Source: a virus. Taken from it: a stretch of DNA of 64,000 nt. Positions 27,353-34,801 of the stretch are shown one piece after another. Each line of letters begins with the position of its first letter. Position 1 is the first letter of the stretch. A program made the translations under genes and the position numbers. The notes under the pieces are model-generated. The model was not told the origin of the DNA, did no database searches, and saw only the letters and a list, made by a program, of their open reading frames with translations. The stretch lies in IMG/VR virus record IMGVR_UViG_3300032954_000010, positions 1 through 64,000 of that record, one strand, 5' to 3'.

Positions 27353-28372
27353 ATGCGAACAGCCCTGATCACGACAACGATAAACGTACCGCGCGTGCTC
27401 AAATTGTATCGCAAATTTGGGCCGGACGTGCAGTTCTTCGTCGCCGCGGACGAGAAGACGCCGCGCCATGCCTACGAGTTCTGCGCCGACATCCCCAAAT
27501 GCGAGATTTATTCGCCCGAACGGCAGCGCGAGCTGGGCTATGAGTGCTCGGCGCTGATTGGTTGGAACTGCGTGCAGCGTCGCAACATTGCGCTGCTCGA
27601 AGCGGTGAAGTGGGGCGCGGAAGTTATTGTGACTATCGACGACGATAATGCCGCCCTCGATGTTGGTTATTTCAATCATATCAGATGGACGTTCATGCGC
27701 CCTTATTCCGGGCTCGAAGCGCAGTCGCTTTCCGGTTGGTTCGATCCTGGCTGTCTACTCGTGCCGCAAACCAAGCATCGTGGCTTCCCGATTGCGATCA
27801 AATCTGAGCCGGTTTTCGAATCGATTGTCGACGCCAAGATCGGCGTCGTTGCCGGGTTGTGCCTGGGCGATCCAGACGTGGATTCAATTACGCGCATCGC
27901 GACTGCACCGGTCATTCATTCCGTTTCCGAACTGGCTCGCGCGGGCGTTGCCGTCAATATTTTTTGCAAGACTGTGTTCAACTCGCAAAACACTGCCTTC
28001 ATCCGCGAACTGGCTCCGGCGATGTTCATGATGCCGGGTATTGGCCGGTACGATGACATCTACGCTTCGCTGATCTGTCAGCGCGTCATGCGCGAACGAG
28101 GGCTGCACGTTCATTTTGACCAGCCGTTTGTATGGCAGCAGCGCAACCAGCATAATCTGCTCGGCGATCTGCGTGCCGAGATCGACGGCATGGAACATAT
28201 TGTAGAATTTGCGCAGTTTCTCGACGATGTGCCGGCGACATTTTTCCTGCAAGGCCCGTGTATCCCGACGCTGCGGGAGACTTATCAGGCGGCGAAAGAG
28301 GAACACTATCTGCCGGCCCTTTCGCTCGAAGCGGCGCTGGCTTTCCTCAACGATATCGAGAAAATTCTGTGA
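27353..28372 (+). CDS. Glycosyltransferase, STELLO/RGP-like
   Basis: 339 residues. It has VFVAADEKTPRH-like start (FFVAADEKTPRHAYEFCADI), SALIGWNCVQRRNIALLEAV and a DXD-type site IVTIDDDNAAL. The W-N-x-x-Q-R-R-N-I pattern with the following acidic site is that of the DUF288/STELLO and reversibly-glycosylated-protein group, which use NDP-sugars. It is the first enzyme of the sugar cluster. Acceptor unknown. Confidence 0.7.
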   Translation: MRTALITTTINVPRVLKLYRKFGPDVQFFVAADEKTPRHAYEFCADIPKCEIYSPERQRELGYECSALIGWNCVQRRNIALLEAVKWGAEVIVTIDDDNAALDVGYFNHIRWTFMRPYSGLEAQSLSGWFDPGCLLVPQTKHRGFPIAIKSEPVFESIVDAKIGVVAGLCLGDPDVDSITRIATAPVIHSVSELARAGVAVNIFCKTVFNSQNTAFIRELAPAMFMMPGIGRYDDIYASLICQRVMRERGLHVHFDQPFVWQQRNQHNLLGDLRAEIDGMEHIVEFAQFLDDVPATFFLQGPCIPTLRETYQAAKEEHYLPALSLEAALAFLNDIEKIL

Positions 28373-28905
28373 TAAAAATATTGCCCCCGCAAAAATATTT
28401 GAAAGAGTGTTTTCGATATGATTCGAAAACAGGGAAATTATTTTGGAAAAAACGCCCACTTCGACATTTTGCAAATAGTAAGCTGTTTAAAATGTATAAC
28501 ACGAGATGGGCTAGTCGAGAAGCTTTGAATTTTAGTGAACCCGGAGACTATAAATATGGTTCGCTTGATGGCACGACTTTAGCGGCGCATCGTGTTATAT
28601 GGAAAATTGTAACGGGAGAAGAACCTCCAAGAATACTTGATCACAAAGATAGAGATAAACAAAATAATCGATTTAAAAATCTGCGAGCAGCCGATGGTTC
28701 ACAAAACGCGTTAAATCGCAATCTTACAAAAGCTAATACAAGCGGAAGAACCGGAGTCAGTTACAATAAAAGAGATCGTAAATGGCTTGTGCAGTTAGGG
28801 TTTAATTATAGGGTTCTTTTTGGCGGACTATTTAAAAATAAACAAGATGCTATTAAAGCGAGAAACACGCTTGAAAAGAAATTTTTTGGAGAATTTTCTC
28901 AATGA
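28369..28905 (+). CDS. HNH homing endonuclease with AP2-like domain
   Basis: 178 residues from a GTG overlapping the previous stop. Residues 1-40 have YLKECFRYDSKTGKLFWKK, typical of this family; the HNH core is AHRVIWKIVTGEEPPRILDH then KDRDKQNNRFKNLRAADGSQ; residues 125-178 (RTGVSYNKRDRKWLVQLGFN) form an AP2-like DNA-binding domain. The gene is strongly AT-rich and packed between two transferase genes with 4-base overlaps on both sides, as a free-standing mobile endonuclease. Confidence 0.85.
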   Translation: MIKILPPQKYLKECFRYDSKTGKLFWKKRPLRHFANSKLFKMYNTRWASREALNFSEPGDYKYGSLDGTTLAAHRVIWKIVTGEEPPRILDHKDRDKQNNRFKNLRAADGSQNALNRNLTKANTSGRTGVSYNKRDRKWLVQLGFNYRVLFGGLFKNKQDAIKARNTLEKKFFGEFSQ

Positions 28906-30206
28906 AAATGGCACTATCTTTGTTGACGGCTAATAAGCCCGAGCTGGTCGCCCAGTCGGCCAAGCCCTTGCTGGCGGGCGCTGTTGCTAATAAATATCAT
29001 CTGTTTGTCGTCGACGGATCGACCAGCGATGTAAACGAGCAGGCGATCTGGGATTTGACGTGGCCTGCCGGTCACATGCACGCCAATGTGCGCGGCGGTG
29101 CCGGAGCGGCCATCGTCTACGCGCTGAGCATGATGCTGGCGCACGAGGAGAACTACAGCCATGTGGCGCTCGTCGAAAGCGACGTGCTTCTTCTTGACGG
29201 CTGGCTCGATTGCCTTGATCTGTTTGATCTTGGCAGGACCGTTGGGCTCGAAGTGGGGGCTGTCAGCGCACGTTGCTACGTGGATCGAGTTCTATTCCAG
29301 GAAGATCGTTTTGCCGTGATGCACAATCTCGGCGCGGGGATGATCGTGCTGACGCGCGAGGCCGCGCGAATTGTGCTGGACACGTTCCGAACCGCATGGT
29401 CGACTGATAACCGCCGCATTTTTGCACAACTGGCGGGTCTCGATATCGGTTCGTTCTGGGCGTTCCGCACCAATGAGCATTATCTGACGGCAGATTGGCA
29501 TTGGGAAGCCGCGCTTGCGGCGCGTGGCTTGGCGGCCTTGGCCCTGACGCCTTCTCCGGTCGAGATGATCGGGCAAAATTCGCCCTTGGCCGAGCAGGGA
29601 TTGACGATTGCGACGGGACCGGTCGAGGAGCGGAGAGACAGTATTGCGTTGGGGGTCTATGCAAATCAGCTCGCGCGCGTCGGCTGCGCATCCCCGGATC
29701 AATTGTTGCTTTCTGTCGACACCAAATTTCATTTCGACCCCAACACTGGCACCCAGACAATCTTTCCGCATCAGATGGAAATGCTTGGCGGCAATTATTG
29801 GGGCGATTGGCGGTTACAGGAAGCGCGTGGATGGGGCACGTTTGCTTGGCGGGCCGGCGACGGCACCGGTTTGAAGGAAATCGAGCAGGCGACCCATGGA
29901 TTTTACACAAAGAACACGTTGAGCGTCCCTGTCTTCGGTCCCTGTGCCGTGCTCATGTCGGGCGGCAAGACCGGCGGTAAGATGGAAGTGATCGACATGC
30001 AATCCGGCTTCAAAGCCGCACCTGAACTGCCGCCGGAGGAAGGACACGGCGTTCTGCAATTGATGGTGCCGGGTGGCATGAATTATCGATCTTTGCGAAT
30101 CAACGCCTTGACGCCGGGTGTTGTCTTCTATGGCATCCAGTCGCGCGAAAAGCAGCCCTATCTGCCGAACATTTCCTTCAACCACTCGATGTTGCCGCCA
30201 GCATGA
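28902..30206 (+). CDS. Putative glycosyltransferase, GT-A-like
   Basis: 434 residues. N-terminal domain: MALSLLTANKPELVAQSAKP, LFVVDGSTSD, GGAGAAIVYALSMMLAHEEN and a VALVESDVLLLDGWLD acidic site (D-x-D-like). The layout matches a GT2-like GT-A fold. The C-terminal 200 residues (IFPHQMEMLGGNYWGDWRLQ, TKNTLSVPVFGPCAVLMSGG) are unlike standard transferases and may bind an acceptor. Family not certain. Confidence 0.6.
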   Translation: MKMALSLLTANKPELVAQSAKPLLAGAVANKYHLFVVDGSTSDVNEQAIWDLTWPAGHMHANVRGGAGAAIVYALSMMLAHEENYSHVALVESDVLLLDGWLDCLDLFDLGRTVGLEVGAVSARCYVDRVLFQEDRFAVMHNLGAGMIVLTREAARIVLDTFRTAWSTDNRRIFAQLAGLDIGSFWAFRTNEHYLTADWHWEAALAARGLAALALTPSPVEMIGQNSPLAEQGLTIATGPVEERRDSIALGVYANQLARVGCASPDQLLLSVDTKFHFDPNTGTQTIFPHQMEMLGGNYWGDWRLQEARGWGTFAWRAGDGTGLKEIEQATHGFYTKNTLSVPVFGPCAVLMSGGKTGGKMEVIDMQSGFKAAPELPPEEGHGVLQLMVPGGMNYRSLRINALTPGVVFYGIQSREKQPYLPNISFNHSMLPPA

Positions 30207-32227
30207 TGATACGCGCTTTGATTACCGGCATAACCGGCATGGTCGGCTCGCATCTGGCTGACTATCTGCTCGCCAACACCGGCTGGAATATCTATGGCAT
30301 GACGCGATGGCGCAGCCCGCTCGCCAATCTAGAACAGCATTTTGGTCGCATCGAGAAAGGCGACCGGTTGTTCCTGCTCAATGGCGATCTGCGCGATAGT
30401 TCGTCGCTGCGTCATGTCGTGCAAACCGCGCGCCCCGATTTTGTCTTTCATCTTGCCGCTCAATCGTTCCCGCAGACCAGCTTCAAATCGCCGATCGATA
30501 CCTACGAGACCAACATCATCGGTACTTGCCGCCTGTTGGAGACACTGTGGGAGTATGTGCCGGACGCGACCATTCATGTCTGCGCCTCGTCGGAAGTCTT
30601 CGGTCGCGTATCCAAGGACGAGATACCGATCCACGAGGATTGCCGGTTTCATCCAGCCTCGCCTTATGCCATCTCCAAATGTGGGACCGATCTGATCGGG
30701 CGCTTCTATGCCGAGGCTTACGGCATGAACGTACAGACGACACGGCTGTTTAGTCACAGTGTTAGTCGTTGGACACCAGTTATTTTGCGCGATAGTTGTA
30801 GCGGTTTAATTGATATAAAATATATTTCAGAATTACGAGAAGCTGGGAAACGTGGAGGATATTTTTCAGGCCGATTCTTGGAAGATGGTACACAACTTTG
30901 GGATTTCACGCGGCATAATCTTGAAGTATGGAATAACGGATGCTGGACAAAAATAAAACATCTGTCGTGCCACCCAATTCGAAATAACAAGATGCTTGAA
31001 ATTGCCACTCGTTCGGGCTCTGTTGACGTAACTGATAATCATTCTGTGATAGGAATGGAAGGACAAGAACTCGTTGCAGCAAATTTGGCGAAAGGAGACA
31101 AGCTAAAAGTTACTGAATTGCCAATTTCAGAGGAAACCGATTTGCCTGAAGAACTGGCATGGTTGTACGGTTTTTTTGTTTCGGAAGGTTGTTTGACTCA
31201 TGGGAAAATTAGAATTGATAATAAGAAAAAAGAATTGCTTGATCGTTGTCGATCCGCGCTATTAAAATTTTTAGCGTGTGATTCTTACTATACTACAGGT
31301 CGTCACGGCGTACTACGAATTACAGTCAGAAAACCTGAGCGCTTTGTTCAATATTTTATCGATTGTTATGCTAAGGATCACAATAAGCGTATCCCAAAAA
31401 TTATTTTGAACGCTTCTCACAAGGCAAAATTAGCTTTTTTACGAGGATACAATGCTGGGGATGGACGATTAAATCATCCTACTTTGGTTAGTGAATTTTT
31501 AGATTTTAAAACAAAATCGCCCATTTTAGCGATGGGTCTTTTCGTTTTGGCGGAAGAAGTTTTGCGTGTTCGAGTAAGATTAACAATCGAACATCGAGCG
31601 CAAGCCCGTTATTATGGAGTACGACCGCTGAATCAAGTAGTAAGCGGAAAAGGCAAACACCTTCTCAGAGATTCGAATGAGATAATTAAAATTACGGAAC
31701 TTCCATACGAAGGTGAAGTATGGGATTTTGAAACAGAGAACCACTGGTTTAACGCAGGAATTGGCGGGTTGATAGTGCATAACACAGGGCCGCGCCGCGG
31801 CGATGTCTTTGTCGAGTCGTCGTTCGCCAAGCAAATCGTGATGATCGAGCGCGGCTTGATCGAGCCGGTGATCCGCGTCGGCAATCTCAACTCGATGCGG
31901 ACCTGGCTCGATGTGCGTGACGTGACGCGAGCTTACCACTTGCTGCTGACCAAGGACCCCATTATTGGCGCTTATTACAACATCGGCGGCGAGTATTCGT
32001 GTACGGTCGGCGATATGCTTAACGCGCTGCTGGGCATGACGGACGTGAAACCGCGCATCGAGCAGGACCCGGCGCGCATGCGGCCCATCGATGCCGACCT
32101 GCAAATTCCAAACACGCTCAAATTCCGTAAGCATACCGGCTGGCAGCCTGAGATTCCCTTCCGGCAGACCGTGCAGGACCTGCTTGACTATTGGCGCAAC
32201 AACAAGATTCCGGTGCTGTACCGATGA
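30203..32227 (+). CDS. GDP-mannose 4,6-dehydratase interrupted by an intein
   Basis: 674 residues including a 342-residue intein; the spliced enzyme would be about 332. Extein N-part: TGITGMVGSHLADYL (Gly-rich NAD site), LAAQSF, SSEVFGR, and the catalytic Y-x-x-x-K in SPYAISKCGTDLIG. The C-part restarts TGPRRGDVFVESSFAKQIVM and has the substrate region RTWLDVRDVTRAYHLLL. The intein lies between His in LFSH and Thr in TGPRRG, the family's conserved R-x-F-N-H-x-x-x-R-R-G loop. The product oxidises GDP-mannose to GDP-4-keto-6-deoxymannose. Start overlaps the previous stop (ATGATG). Confidence 0.9.
   Translation: MMIRALITGITGMVGSHLADYLLANTGWNIYGMTRWRSPLANLEQHFGRIEKGDRLFLLNGDLRDSSSLRHVVQTARPDFVFHLAAQSFPQTSFKSPIDTYETNIIGTCRLLETLWEYVPDATIHVCASSEVFGRVSKDEIPIHEDCRFHPASPYAISKCGTDLIGRFYAEAYGMNVQTTRLFSHSVSRWTPVILRDSCSGLIDIKYISELREAGKRGGYFSGRFLEDGTQLWDFTRHNLEVWNNGCWTKIKHLSCHPIRNNKMLEIATRSGSVDVTDNHSVIGMEGQELVAANLAKGDKLKVTELPISEETDLPEELAWLYGFFVSEGCLTHGKIRIDNKKKELLDRCRSALLKFLACDSYYTTGRHGVLRITVRKPERFVQYFIDCYAKDHNKRIPKIILNASHKAKLAFLRGYNAGDGRLNHPTLVSEFLDFKTKSPILAMGLFVLAEEVLRVRVRLTIEHRAQARYYGVRPLNQVVSGKGKHLLRDSNEIIKITELPYEGEVWDFETENHWFNAGIGGLIVHNTGPRRGDVFVESSFAKQIVMIERGLIEPVIRVGNLNSMRTWLDVRDVTRAYHLLLTKDPIIGAYYNIGGEYSCTVGDMLNALLGMTDVKPRIEQDPARMRPIDADLQIPNTLKFRKHTGWQPEIPFRQTVQDLLDYWRNNKIPVLYR
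30758..31783 (+). mobile_element. Intein with LAGLIDADG endonuclease domain
   Basis: 342 residues, in frame. Block A: SVSRWTPVILRD (Ser1). Block B: VDVTDNHSVIG (T-x-x-H). Endonuclease motifs: ELAWLYGFFVSEGCL near 31155 and KLAFLRGYNAGDGRL near 31425. Block F: GEVWDFETENHWFNAG; block G: GLIVHN, ending in His-Asn, followed by Thr (+1). All residues needed for splicing are present, with hydroxyl nucleophiles at both ends. The DNA is far more AT-rich than the flanking gene, as expected of a recent arrival. Confidence 0.92.
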
Positions 32228-32559
32228 CATGGAAAGTATACCTAGAAAATTTAGTTAATTTCGGCCAGCTTGGTTATCGTATGTACGTTGGCAAAAAAAA
32301 TGCCGATGGAACAAGTGACTTTTTATTTGGCCCTTCAATTATACATTTGGAGGCAAATCATTTTATCCCGCAAGAAAAAGCCTTTTTGGATGACAGTGGA
32401 CCTTATCGAGTAGACGTTAGAAATTTTTTACAAGCGATGTCAGATACCGCATGGGAAATCGGTATAAAACCCAAACAAATTGAAGACAATTCTAACGAAT
32501 TAAAAGCAACCAAGTATCATCTTGAGGATATGCGACAACTGGCGGGTATAAAGAAATGA
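32224..32559 (+). CDS. AT-rich hypothetical protein
   Basis: 111 residues from an ATG overlapping the previous stop. It has NFGQLGYRMYVGKKNADGTS, SIIHLEANHFIPQEKAFLDD and a helical end (KYHLEDMRQLAGIKK). AT-rich like the intein and HNH genes, but no nuclease motif is seen. Unknown. Confidence 0.5.
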   Translation: MTWKVYLENLVNFGQLGYRMYVGKKNADGTSDFLFGPSIIHLEANHFIPQEKAFLDDSGPYRVDVRNFLQAMSDTAWEIGIKPKQIEDNSNELKATKYHLEDMRQLAGIKK

Positions 32560-32981
32560 CCGAACGTAAATATCTGCCGACGTTGGCTGAATTGATCGAT
32601 CGTTTGAGCATCATCATGCTCAAAAGCATTTTCATTTCTGAAAATCGGCAGGCATACCGCGAGGAAATGGCGCTGATTGAGCATGATATCGGGGCACTGC
32701 TCGCTGGTAAGCAACTTGGCGCTCTCGATGTTCGTGCCATCATGGCGATCATGCTGACGAACAGATTCATATGGGAAAATGAAAGTCGAGCGCGCGCCGG
32801 AGGGGATGACCAGGATAAATTGCTAAAACTTACGCATTCCGTTAACGGCGCCCGCAATACCGCCAAGAACGTTTTATCGAAGCGGCTTGGCGATCGGCTC
32901 GACTTAAAAATTGACTGCCTTGCCGCGAACTTGCCGCCGGAATTTGGCAAATGGCAGATATTTGAGGAGGGCGAGGTATGA
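32556..32981 (+). CDS. Sugar-cluster helical protein, unknown role
   Basis: 141 residues, overlapping both neighbours by 4 bases. Residues 6-45 (YLPTLAELIDRLSIIMLKSI, then EEMALIEHDIGALLAG) and 68-141 are helical. The E-L-I-D-R-L-S-I pattern recalls short proteins seen beside sugar-nucleotide genes. I cannot assign a reaction. Coupled expression ties it to the dehydratase and epimerase. Confidence 0.5.
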   Translation: MTERKYLPTLAELIDRLSIIMLKSIFISENRQAYREEMALIEHDIGALLAGKQLGALDVRAIMAIMLTNRFIWENESRARAGGDDQDKLLKLTHSVNGARNTAKNVLSKRLGDRLDLKIDCLAANLPPEFGKWQIFEEGEV

Positions 32982-33952
32982 AACGCGCCCTCGTTCTCGG
33001 AGCCTCGGGGCTGATCGGCTCACATCTCGTGACCCGGCTCAAGGAAGACGGCTATAACGTCGTCGGCGTATCTCGAAGTCGCCCCTTGATGAACGACGCC
33101 GACGAATATATCGAGGTCGATCTGCGCGCCGTGTCGCCGTCCGATACGCTTTTCAAGGGTGTCGATCGCCTCTATCAGCTCGCCTGCGAGGTCGGCGGCA
33201 TTGGCTACATTGCTGATAAGGCCAATGAAGTCGAGATGTTGCGCAACTCGACTCAGATCGACATGGCGGTGCTCGAAGCTTGTCGTTATCAGCAATTGCG
33301 CGGGCGGCGGTCGCCCAAGATTTTTTTTGCCTCGTCGGCTTGCGTCTACAATAAGCCAAACAAGCGGTTTTATGCCGAGAGCGACGCCTATCCGGCCAAC
33401 TGCGCCAATGAGTTCGCGTGGCAGAAACTGTTTGCCGAACGGCTTTATCAGGCTTACGCGCGCAATTGCGGCATGGACATTCGTATCGGCCGCCTGTTCA
33501 ACACCTACGGTATCGGCATGGCCTGGCAAGGCGGGCGCGAGAAGTCGGTGGCGGCACTTTGCCGCAAGATCGCAGAGGCCGAGGATAATGGCGTCATCGA
33601 GGTCTGGGGCAGCGGCGAGCAGACGCGCTCCTACATGCACGTCGACGATGCCGTGGAGGGCATATGCCGCTTGATGGATTATCCGGCGCCGAACGCGGGC
33701 GAGCCTTTGAACATCGGGCCGACGCAGGAAGTCACCATCAAGGACCTGATTCGCACGATCAGCGCCATTGCCGGCAAGCATGTCTTTTCCCGCTTCGGCG
33801 ACGGCCCTTCGGGCGTATCCAAGATTTGCTCGGATAATGCATGGATCAGGACAAAACTGCATTGGCAGCCGGAAATCCCGATTGAGGAAGGGCTGAAAGA
33901 GGTCTATCCGTGGATCGAAAAACAAGTGCTTGACTTGCGTACGCAAACGTAA
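32978..33952 (+). CDS. NDP-sugar epimerase, GDP-mannose 3,5-epimerase-like
   Basis: 324 residues. NAD site RALVLGASGLIGSHLV, EVGGIGYIADK, SSACVYNKPNKR, then EFAWQKLFAERLYQAY, GRLFNTYGIGMAW and YMHVDDAVEGICRL. The active-site Y-x-x-x-K of extended short-chain enzymes would fall on F-A-W-Q-K, so the Tyr is Phe (TTC for TAC). Retained: Lys and the SSA Ser/Thr region. Family members epimerise or reduce GDP-4-keto sugars. With Phe it may be slower or bind without acting, unless another residue takes over. Function uncertain. Confidence 0.75.
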   Translation: MKRALVLGASGLIGSHLVTRLKEDGYNVVGVSRSRPLMNDADEYIEVDLRAVSPSDTLFKGVDRLYQLACEVGGIGYIADKANEVEMLRNSTQIDMAVLEACRYQQLRGRRSPKIFFASSACVYNKPNKRFYAESDAYPANCANEFAWQKLFAERLYQAYARNCGMDIRIGRLFNTYGIGMAWQGGREKSVAALCRKIAEAEDNGVIEVWGSGEQTRSYMHVDDAVEGICRLMDYPAPNAGEPLNIGPTQEVTIKDLIRTISAIAGKHVFSRFGDGPSGVSKICSDNAWIRTKLHWQPEIPIEEGLKEVYPWIEKQVLDLRTQT

Positions 33953-33971: not shown

Positions 33972-34076
33972 ATGCGTCTCGTTCTCGCGATCCTGATCTG
34001 CACGCTGTTGACCGGTTGTGTCGACGGCAGCACCGGTAAGTTCTTCATCTGCGGGGTAACGACGCATTGTAAATAA
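33972..34076 (+). CDS. Small lipoprotein
   Basis: 34 residues from an ATG behind TAGGAG. It reads MRLVLAILICTLLTGCVDGS, with a lipobox (LLTGC) cut before Cys; the mature part has only 19 residues with two further Cys. It could be an entry-exclusion factor or, much less likely, an outer spanin. It is separated from the lysis genes. Confidence 0.6.
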   Translation: MRLVLAILICTLLTGCVDGSTGKFFICGVTTHCK

Positions 34077-34087
34077 TGGAGGGGGTC

Positions 34088-34801
34088 ATGCTGCTCGGAT
34101 ATGCCCGCGTTTCCACGACCGAACAGGCCGCCGACAACCGCTACTCGCTGGAAGGCCAGGAAAAGATCATCCGCGGCTACGCGATGGCCAAGGGTTTCAG
34201 CCAGTTCGATACCGCCGTCTATATCGATCCGGGCATCAGCGCCTCGATCCCCTTGCGCAACCGGCCGAACGGCAAGAAGCTTCTGGAAGACGCCAAGCAC
34301 GGCGATACCATTATTGCCTCGAAACTCGACCGCATGTTCCGCTCGGCTTCCGACGCGCTCAACATGGCAGAGATTTTCAAGGAAAAGGGCATCGATCTCG
34401 TGCTGTTCGATCTCGGCTCCGAACCGATCAATGCCAGCGGCCTGGCGCAGTTTTTCTTCACCATTATCGCCGCCGTGGCGCAACTTGAACGAACCCTCAT
34501 TCGCGAAAGGATGATCGGTGGCAAGAAAGCGAAGAAAGCGAAAGGCGGCCATATCGGCGGGAAGACGCCTTACGGATACCGAGTTGTTGGCCAAGGTCGC
34601 GACGCTCGGCTCGAAGCGGTTGAGGAAGAACAAAGGGTTATTGCAAAGGTTAAGGAGATCGTCAGTGATCGGCCTTATCTCACGTCGTCATACACCAAGA
34701 GCCTGCTCGATGAAGCGGGGATGACGGCGCGCAACGGCAAACCATTCTACACCATGCAGGTCCGGCGCATCATCGATCAGGTGCTCAGTGCTCCTCACTG
34801 A
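34088..34801 (+). CDS. Small serine recombinase (resolvase/invertase family)
   Basis: 237 residues from an ATG with GGAGGGGG upstream; an ATG 12 bases before is possible but lacks this spacing. Catalytic region: LGYARVSTTEQAADN (Ser nucleophile), LDRMFRSASDALNM and INASGLAQFFFTIIAAVAQL. The linker E helix (LERTLIRERMIGGKKAKK) is followed by GGHIGGKTPYGYRV and a C-terminal DNA-binding helix set (YTKSLLDEAGMTARNGKPFY). It is too short for a large serine integrase. It may resolve multimers, invert a segment, or integrate in a limited way. Confidence 0.85.
   Translation: MLLGYARVSTTEQAADNRYSLEGQEKIIRGYAMAKGFSQFDTAVYIDPGISASIPLRNRPNGKKLLEDAKHGDTIIASKLDRMFRSASDALNMAEIFKEKGIDLVLFDLGSEPINASGLAQFFFTIIAAVAQLERTLIRERMIGGKKAKKAKGGHIGGKTPYGYRVVGQGRDARLEAVEEEQRVIAKVKEIVSDRPYLTSSYTKSLLDEAGMTARNGKPFYTMQVRRIIDQVLSAPH

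Follow-up and report, generated by a model that had tools for sequence, protein, structure and literature searches.

A predicted mobile class 1 LAGLIDADG intein in the active-site loop of a phage GDP-sugar 4,6-dehydratase

Background

What is the long in-frame segment that interrupts a sugar-nucleotide dehydratase gene in a virus, and does it splice and move? The gene is found on IMG/VR virus record IMGVR_UViG_3300032954_000010 (66,452 bases), positions 1-64,000 of which form the window, the whole 64,000-nucleotide stretch analyzed here. A first-pass annotation had described the segment as a complete LAGLIDADG intein inside a phage GDP-mannose 4,6-dehydratase; its attribution to a phage holds, and the record has genes for a terminase, a DNA polymerase and a primase. 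A survey, as quoted in PMC5784728, places more than 60% of inteins in replication, recombination and repair proteins.

Identification of the insert and its splicing blocks

A single open frame of 674 aa (30203-32227, + strand) spans both the dehydratase and the insert, the latter being a stop-free, in-frame segment of 342 aa (residues 186-527; 30758-31783). Pfam searches with this frame recovered GDP_Man_Dehyd split into two parts, one on each side of the insert, and in the insert itself matches to LAGLIDADG_3 (1.3e-8) and Intein_splicing (5.3e-7; 30.0 bits, below the Pfam gathering cut-off of 35.8). Taking out the 342 residues leaves a 332-aa enzyme whose alignment to solved dehydratases runs ungapped across the junction. 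The N-extein (residues 1-185; 30203-30757, +) constitutes the Rossmann half of the dehydratase with its GxxGxxG, S129/S130-E131 and Y155xxxK159 motifs, and the C-extein, which begins at Thr+1 (TGPRRG...; 31784-32227, +, including the stop), carries R189/R190 (spliced-enzyme numbering), the arginines of the loop. The GC content of the intein is 0.39 versus 0.56 and 0.59 in the flanks.

A search for inteins at the same insertion site, one of the checks proposed in the first-pass annotation, yielded 11 further alleles at the identical boundary ([TN]H^S...HN^TGP, where ^ marks a splice junction), two from viral contigs (L002, L003) and nine from bacterial genomes spanning four or more phyla. Splicing block A (SVSRWTPVILRD; 30758-30793) opens with the nucleophile Ser1; block B (31010-31051) supplies T92-x-x-H95 (VTDNHS); block F (EVWDFETENHWFNA; 31715-31756) supplies D323 and H329, which lie within the stretch EVWDFETENHWF; and block G (GIGGLIVHN; 31757-31783) ends in H341-N342, followed by Thr+1. 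Interspersed between blocks B and F are LAGLIDADG motif 1 (LAWLYGFFVSEG; 31154-31189), detected with Pfam LAGLIDADG_3 and bearing the acid E143, and motif 2 (LAFLRGYNAGDG; 31430-31465), located by alignment to PI-PkoII and bearing the acid D235 (all on the + strand). The residues S1, T92, H95, E143, D235, D323, H329, H341, N342 and the Thr at +1 are invariant in the 12 alleles (window intein included), across which 82 positions are invariant.

The T-x-x-H of block B and the Asp/His of block F (T92, H95, D323, H329) form the class 1 pattern and not that of the class 3 Cys. Likewise, S1, the penultimate H341, the C-terminal N342 and T+1 agree with the class 1 definition, namely Cys/Ser/Thr at position 1, Cys/Ser/Thr at +1, a C-terminal Asn and usually a penultimate His (PMC4031507). 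The Ser1/Thr+1 pair, singled out in the first-pass annotation as unusual, is standard class 1 chemistry within this definition and recurs in the viral PolB intein L004. Given that the identical boundary is seen in 12 independent records, and that 22 phage homologues have an unbroken loop, the insert is far beyond chance. All residues named in the first-pass annotation are present and its exact boundaries hold, and on these sequence comparisons 30758-31783 is a real, complete intein that is very probably active in splicing.

Predicted fold and comparison with known inteins

An AlphaFold model of the intein (10 alleles in the alignment; pLDDT 84, pTM 0.86) has its best match in PI-PkoII (2cw7), with Z 28.9 over 316 residues, and aligns over its whole length also with TliVMA (Z 27.7), PhoVMA (25.1) and PI-PfuI (21.9). 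Both ends of the model match mini-inteins (5o9i, Z 19.2; 7oec, 18.5; 4o1s, 18.4), indicating a Hint fold, and its center (residues 129-293) matches I-DmoI (Z 15.3 over 147 residues), indicating a LAGLIDADG fold. The corresponding model of the unspliced precursor was weak (pLDDT 73, pTM 0.51) and was left out of the analysis. Together the conserved blocks and the modeled fold confirm the prediction of a class 1 intein with a two-motif LAGLIDADG homing endonuclease.

PI-PkoII (the Pko Pol-2 intein) is the closest solved structure by both sequence and fold and shares the Hint and LAGLIDADG regions along the whole aligned length, but it resides in an archaeal DNA polymerase, is 537 aa long and is 24% identical. 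In the virus collections searched, the nearest inteins outside sugar-nucleotide enzymes are the PolB inteins L004 (viral) and L005 (LR756508.1), which also combine Ser1, a C-terminal Asn and Thr+1, but have a DNA polymerase as host and are about 24-25% identical to the window intein. The rarity that had been ascribed to an intein in a sugar-nucleotide enzyme was overstated: full-length 'type II' gmd inteins were already published from Thermosynechococcus sp. TA-1/CL-1 and relatives (PMC9403480), and allelic or neighboring-site inteins occur in several phyla. The Thermosynechococcus inteins are similarly full-length, with a homing endonuclease, and are found in the same enzyme family; unlike the phage-borne window intein they lie on a cyanobacterial chromosome, at a site not stated in PMC9403480, and their host is gmd, whereas the window host is probably of another dehydratase subfamily. 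As a mobile element the window intein is hence of an ordinary kind, and its type of host gene, though less usual, is already reported.

The host dehydratase and its gene neighborhood

The spliced 332-aa protein matches the PDB entries 7us5 (6.6e-95) and 1db3 (1.3e-39), and also 2pk3, with no gap through the junction; this alignment to GMD structures had been proposed in the first-pass annotation, and it supports the product of 332 residues predicted there. The best solved relative, 7us5, which has no intein, is a GDP-D-glycero-D-manno-heptose 4,6-dehydratase. The GxxGxxG, S/T-E and YxxxK motifs and the loop arginine (motif list in PMC3584063) are all present in the spliced protein, and the NCBIfam gmd equivalog TIGR01472 scores 147.8 bits against a cut-off of 415, on the unspliced frame only. 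We take the host to be an extended-SDR GDP-sugar 4,6-dehydratase, probably of a subfamily other than classical gmd. Since a GDP-heptose dehydratase is the closest entry in the PDB, the substrate is not fixed as GDP-mannose, and may be either GDP-mannose or a GDP-heptose; the earlier designation as a GDP-mannose 4,6-dehydratase stands as regards the dehydratase motifs and is not settled as regards GMD identity.

The flanks rejoin across the conserved loop, as had been claimed, but in the window phage this loop reads R-L-F-S-H^T-G-P-R-R-G in place of the R-x-F-N-H given earlier. Arg190 of a GMD is required for orienting the substrate and NADP+ (PMC3584063), and its equivalent in the spliced phage enzyme is R190, an assignment made from the shared Y155/K159 numbering and a 1db3 alignment that is gapless between those residues. 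R190 lies four residues after Thr+1, in agreement with the proposed insertion in the active-site loop. Because the insert lies between the S-S-E/YxxxK half and the arginines of the loop, including R190 just beyond it, the unspliced precursor is very probably inactive, and we infer that enzyme activity depends on splicing.

Downstream of the dehydratase is a gene for a GDP-L-fucose-synthase-like sugar-nucleotide epimerase/reductase (32978-33952, +; Pfam Epimerase, 6.4e-43; PHROG 540; NCBIfam GDPFucSynFcl, 4.9e-31, under the equivalog cut-off), which perhaps acts on the dehydratase product. Right after the dehydratase gene there is a 122-aa frame without a known family (32191-32559, +) and with low GC (about 0.38), and just downstream of the sugar genes a short serine recombinase of 241 aa with a Resolvase N-terminal domain (34076-34801, +). 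A free-standing HNH endonuclease gene (28258-28905, +; PHROG 99, Pfam HNH_3) lies some 1.3 kb upstream from the dehydratase gene, within an island of low GC (about 0.35-0.41), and is probably a second homing element of this sugar cluster. Rfam detected no RNA elements near the locus. A Pfam Intein_splicing search of the phage genome recovered no further inteins, a result that says little because the same search overlooked the 342-aa intein.

Alleles, empty sites and mobility

The bacterial alleles L006-L012 are on contigs labeled Desulfobacteraceae, Omnitrophica, Syntrophaceae, Nealsonbacteria and Rokubacteria, and a phylum scan of the Rokubacteria group added two more, for a total of 5 of 95 genomes. 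No allele beyond the known one was found in the Omnitrophica group (285 genomes scanned), the group of L008 (395) or that of L009 (380), and the plasmids searched had no related intein. These hosts are named from MAGs, so any one assignment might reflect a binning error or a prophage. The 11 alleles are about 46-61% identical to the window intein, and their exteins 43-64% to the window extein.

A search of viral contigs with the N-extein alone gave 22 contigs at 57-70% identity; in all 22 of these close phage homologues the intein is absent and the loop uninterrupted (R-M-F/G-T-H-T-G-P-R-R-G), showing the intein to be dispensable and its occurrence sporadic. The same 22 proteins rule out that the 342 residues are a conserved non-splicing domain, the case that the first-pass annotation had named as counting against an intein. 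An insert that no longer splices, or does so only on a signal and thereby switches phage sugar synthesis, is nevertheless conceivable given its location at the active site, the long branch of the phage extein (0.58 versus 0.13 for L013) and the conditional splicing known for other inteins. We regard it as very improbable, since every splicing residue is invariant in the 12 alleles, the enzyme retains its catalytic S-E-Y-K and loop residues, the empty-site relatives show the insert to be dispensable, and there is no pointer to a sensor. The sharp fall in GC at both borders might also raise the prospect of an assembly chimera, with the intein of another gene joined to the dehydratase, to which we assign a negligible probability: the frame is single with exact junctions, low GC is common to most alleles, and the recurrence of this junction in 12 records, drawn from assemblies unrelated to each other, rules a chimera out. 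As most alleles have low GC, the GC drop is likewise weak evidence for recency.

The remaining alternative, a non-mobile intein inherited vertically in the dehydratase lineage, we consider marginally less probable still than a degenerate or regulatory insert. It would account for the five Rokubacteria-group alleles, in which intein (74-82%) and extein (66-83%) identities are similar, and for the intein GC being nearer that of the flanks in the three such alleles checked; moreover, the AU test does not reject a single clade of all exteins that carry an intein (p 0.118). It is at odds with the 22 empty nearest phage homologues and with the extein tree, on which the occupied state requires at least three changes, their direction not being told by the tree. 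It is also at odds with the affinities of the window and L006 alleles. The nearest rows to the window extein are intein-free phage proteins (L013, 68%), and its nearest intein-bearing relative, L006, is 64% identical in the extein and 57% in the intein. With L007 and L008, L006 shares 69-70% identity in the intein but only 51-54% in the extein. The extein tree sets both the window and L006 among intein-free phage proteins, and a clade of the two inteins, picked for the AU test after the identities had been seen, costs 22.9 log units and is disfavored (AU p 0.011). Between the window and L006, intein and extein relationships disagree, which is what homing would predict.

For the endonuclease part, dN/dS is about 0.05-0.18 in pairs with computable dS, values that are rough as dS is near saturation; these low ratios and the invariance of E143 and D235 suggest that the endonuclease is maintained. 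The distribution of occupied and empty sites is consistent with cleavage of the empty allele by this enzyme.

In light of the above, we propose with high confidence that the locus encodes a mobile class 1 LAGLIDADG intein in the active-site loop of a phage-encoded extended-SDR GDP-sugar 4,6-dehydratase, splicing to a 332-residue enzyme. The 674-residue precursor would be translated; judging from the invariant residues and the fold, Ser1 would then take over the N-extein via an N-O acyl shift aided by the block B Thr/His, Thr+1 would attack the ester, and Asn342 would cyclize with His341 assisting, leaving the flanks joined as ...RLFSH-TGPRRG.... The distribution further suggests that the endonuclease could cut empty-site dehydratase alleles in co-infecting phages or hosts, after which recombination repair would copy the intein into the cut allele.

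Related inteins at neighboring codons of the loop

Related LAGLIDADG inteins, the GMD-b inteins, occupy the same GMD loop in bacteria and one virus, but unlike the window intein they are one codon downstream, in classical GMD (FNHE^SPRRG), with Ser, Thr or Cys at position 1. Ser1 is seen in L042 (1381-2409) and L043 (1495-2526), from two Omnitrophica-group genomes (ILFNHE^S...HN^SPRRG), Thr1 in L051 (1255-2424, - strand), and Cys1 in both the viral L054 (2998-4140), which ends in Ser-Asn, and L040, a partial copy cut by the contig end. The Thr1 of L051 and the C-terminal Ser-Asn of L054, without a penultimate His, are unusual. One codon earlier than the window site, a UDP-sugar-type extended SDR carries the 465-aa LAGLIDADG intein L046 (826-2220; RIFN^S...HN^TYGP). 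The genome with L046 falls in the Patescibacteria-like group to which L009 belongs, and a further genome from this group has an intein in an FtsH-like AAA protease (L047; VVAA^SVTGDT...SN^TNRPD). Searches of viral contigs recovered one relative of L051, namely L054, and none of L042 or L046.

The GMD-a and GMD-b inteins fall together in the best tree with support of only 64/58, at which a single origin is not shown. Across three enzyme types, inteins are found at three codon positions next to one another (FTH^TGP in the heptose/mannose-type dehydratase, FNHE^SP in classical GMD and RIFN^TYGP in the UDP-sugar-type SDR), in phages and several bacterial phyla. We consider it more likely than not that inteins have repeatedly targeted the catalytic loop (F-[TNS]-[HT]-x-x-P) of extended-SDR sugar-nucleotide enzymes, and phages could plausibly have carried them.

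Conclusions

Intein-bearing genes of this type can pass for oversized or broken dehydratases in annotation, which calls for practical caution. Occupied and empty sites within the allele family form a naturally occurring series usable for homing tests. As a cross-phylum and phage-borne family in a surface-sugar enzyme, it extends the range of intein host genes and suggests that inteins choose their hosts by conserved ligand loops as well, rather than by DNA metabolism alone.
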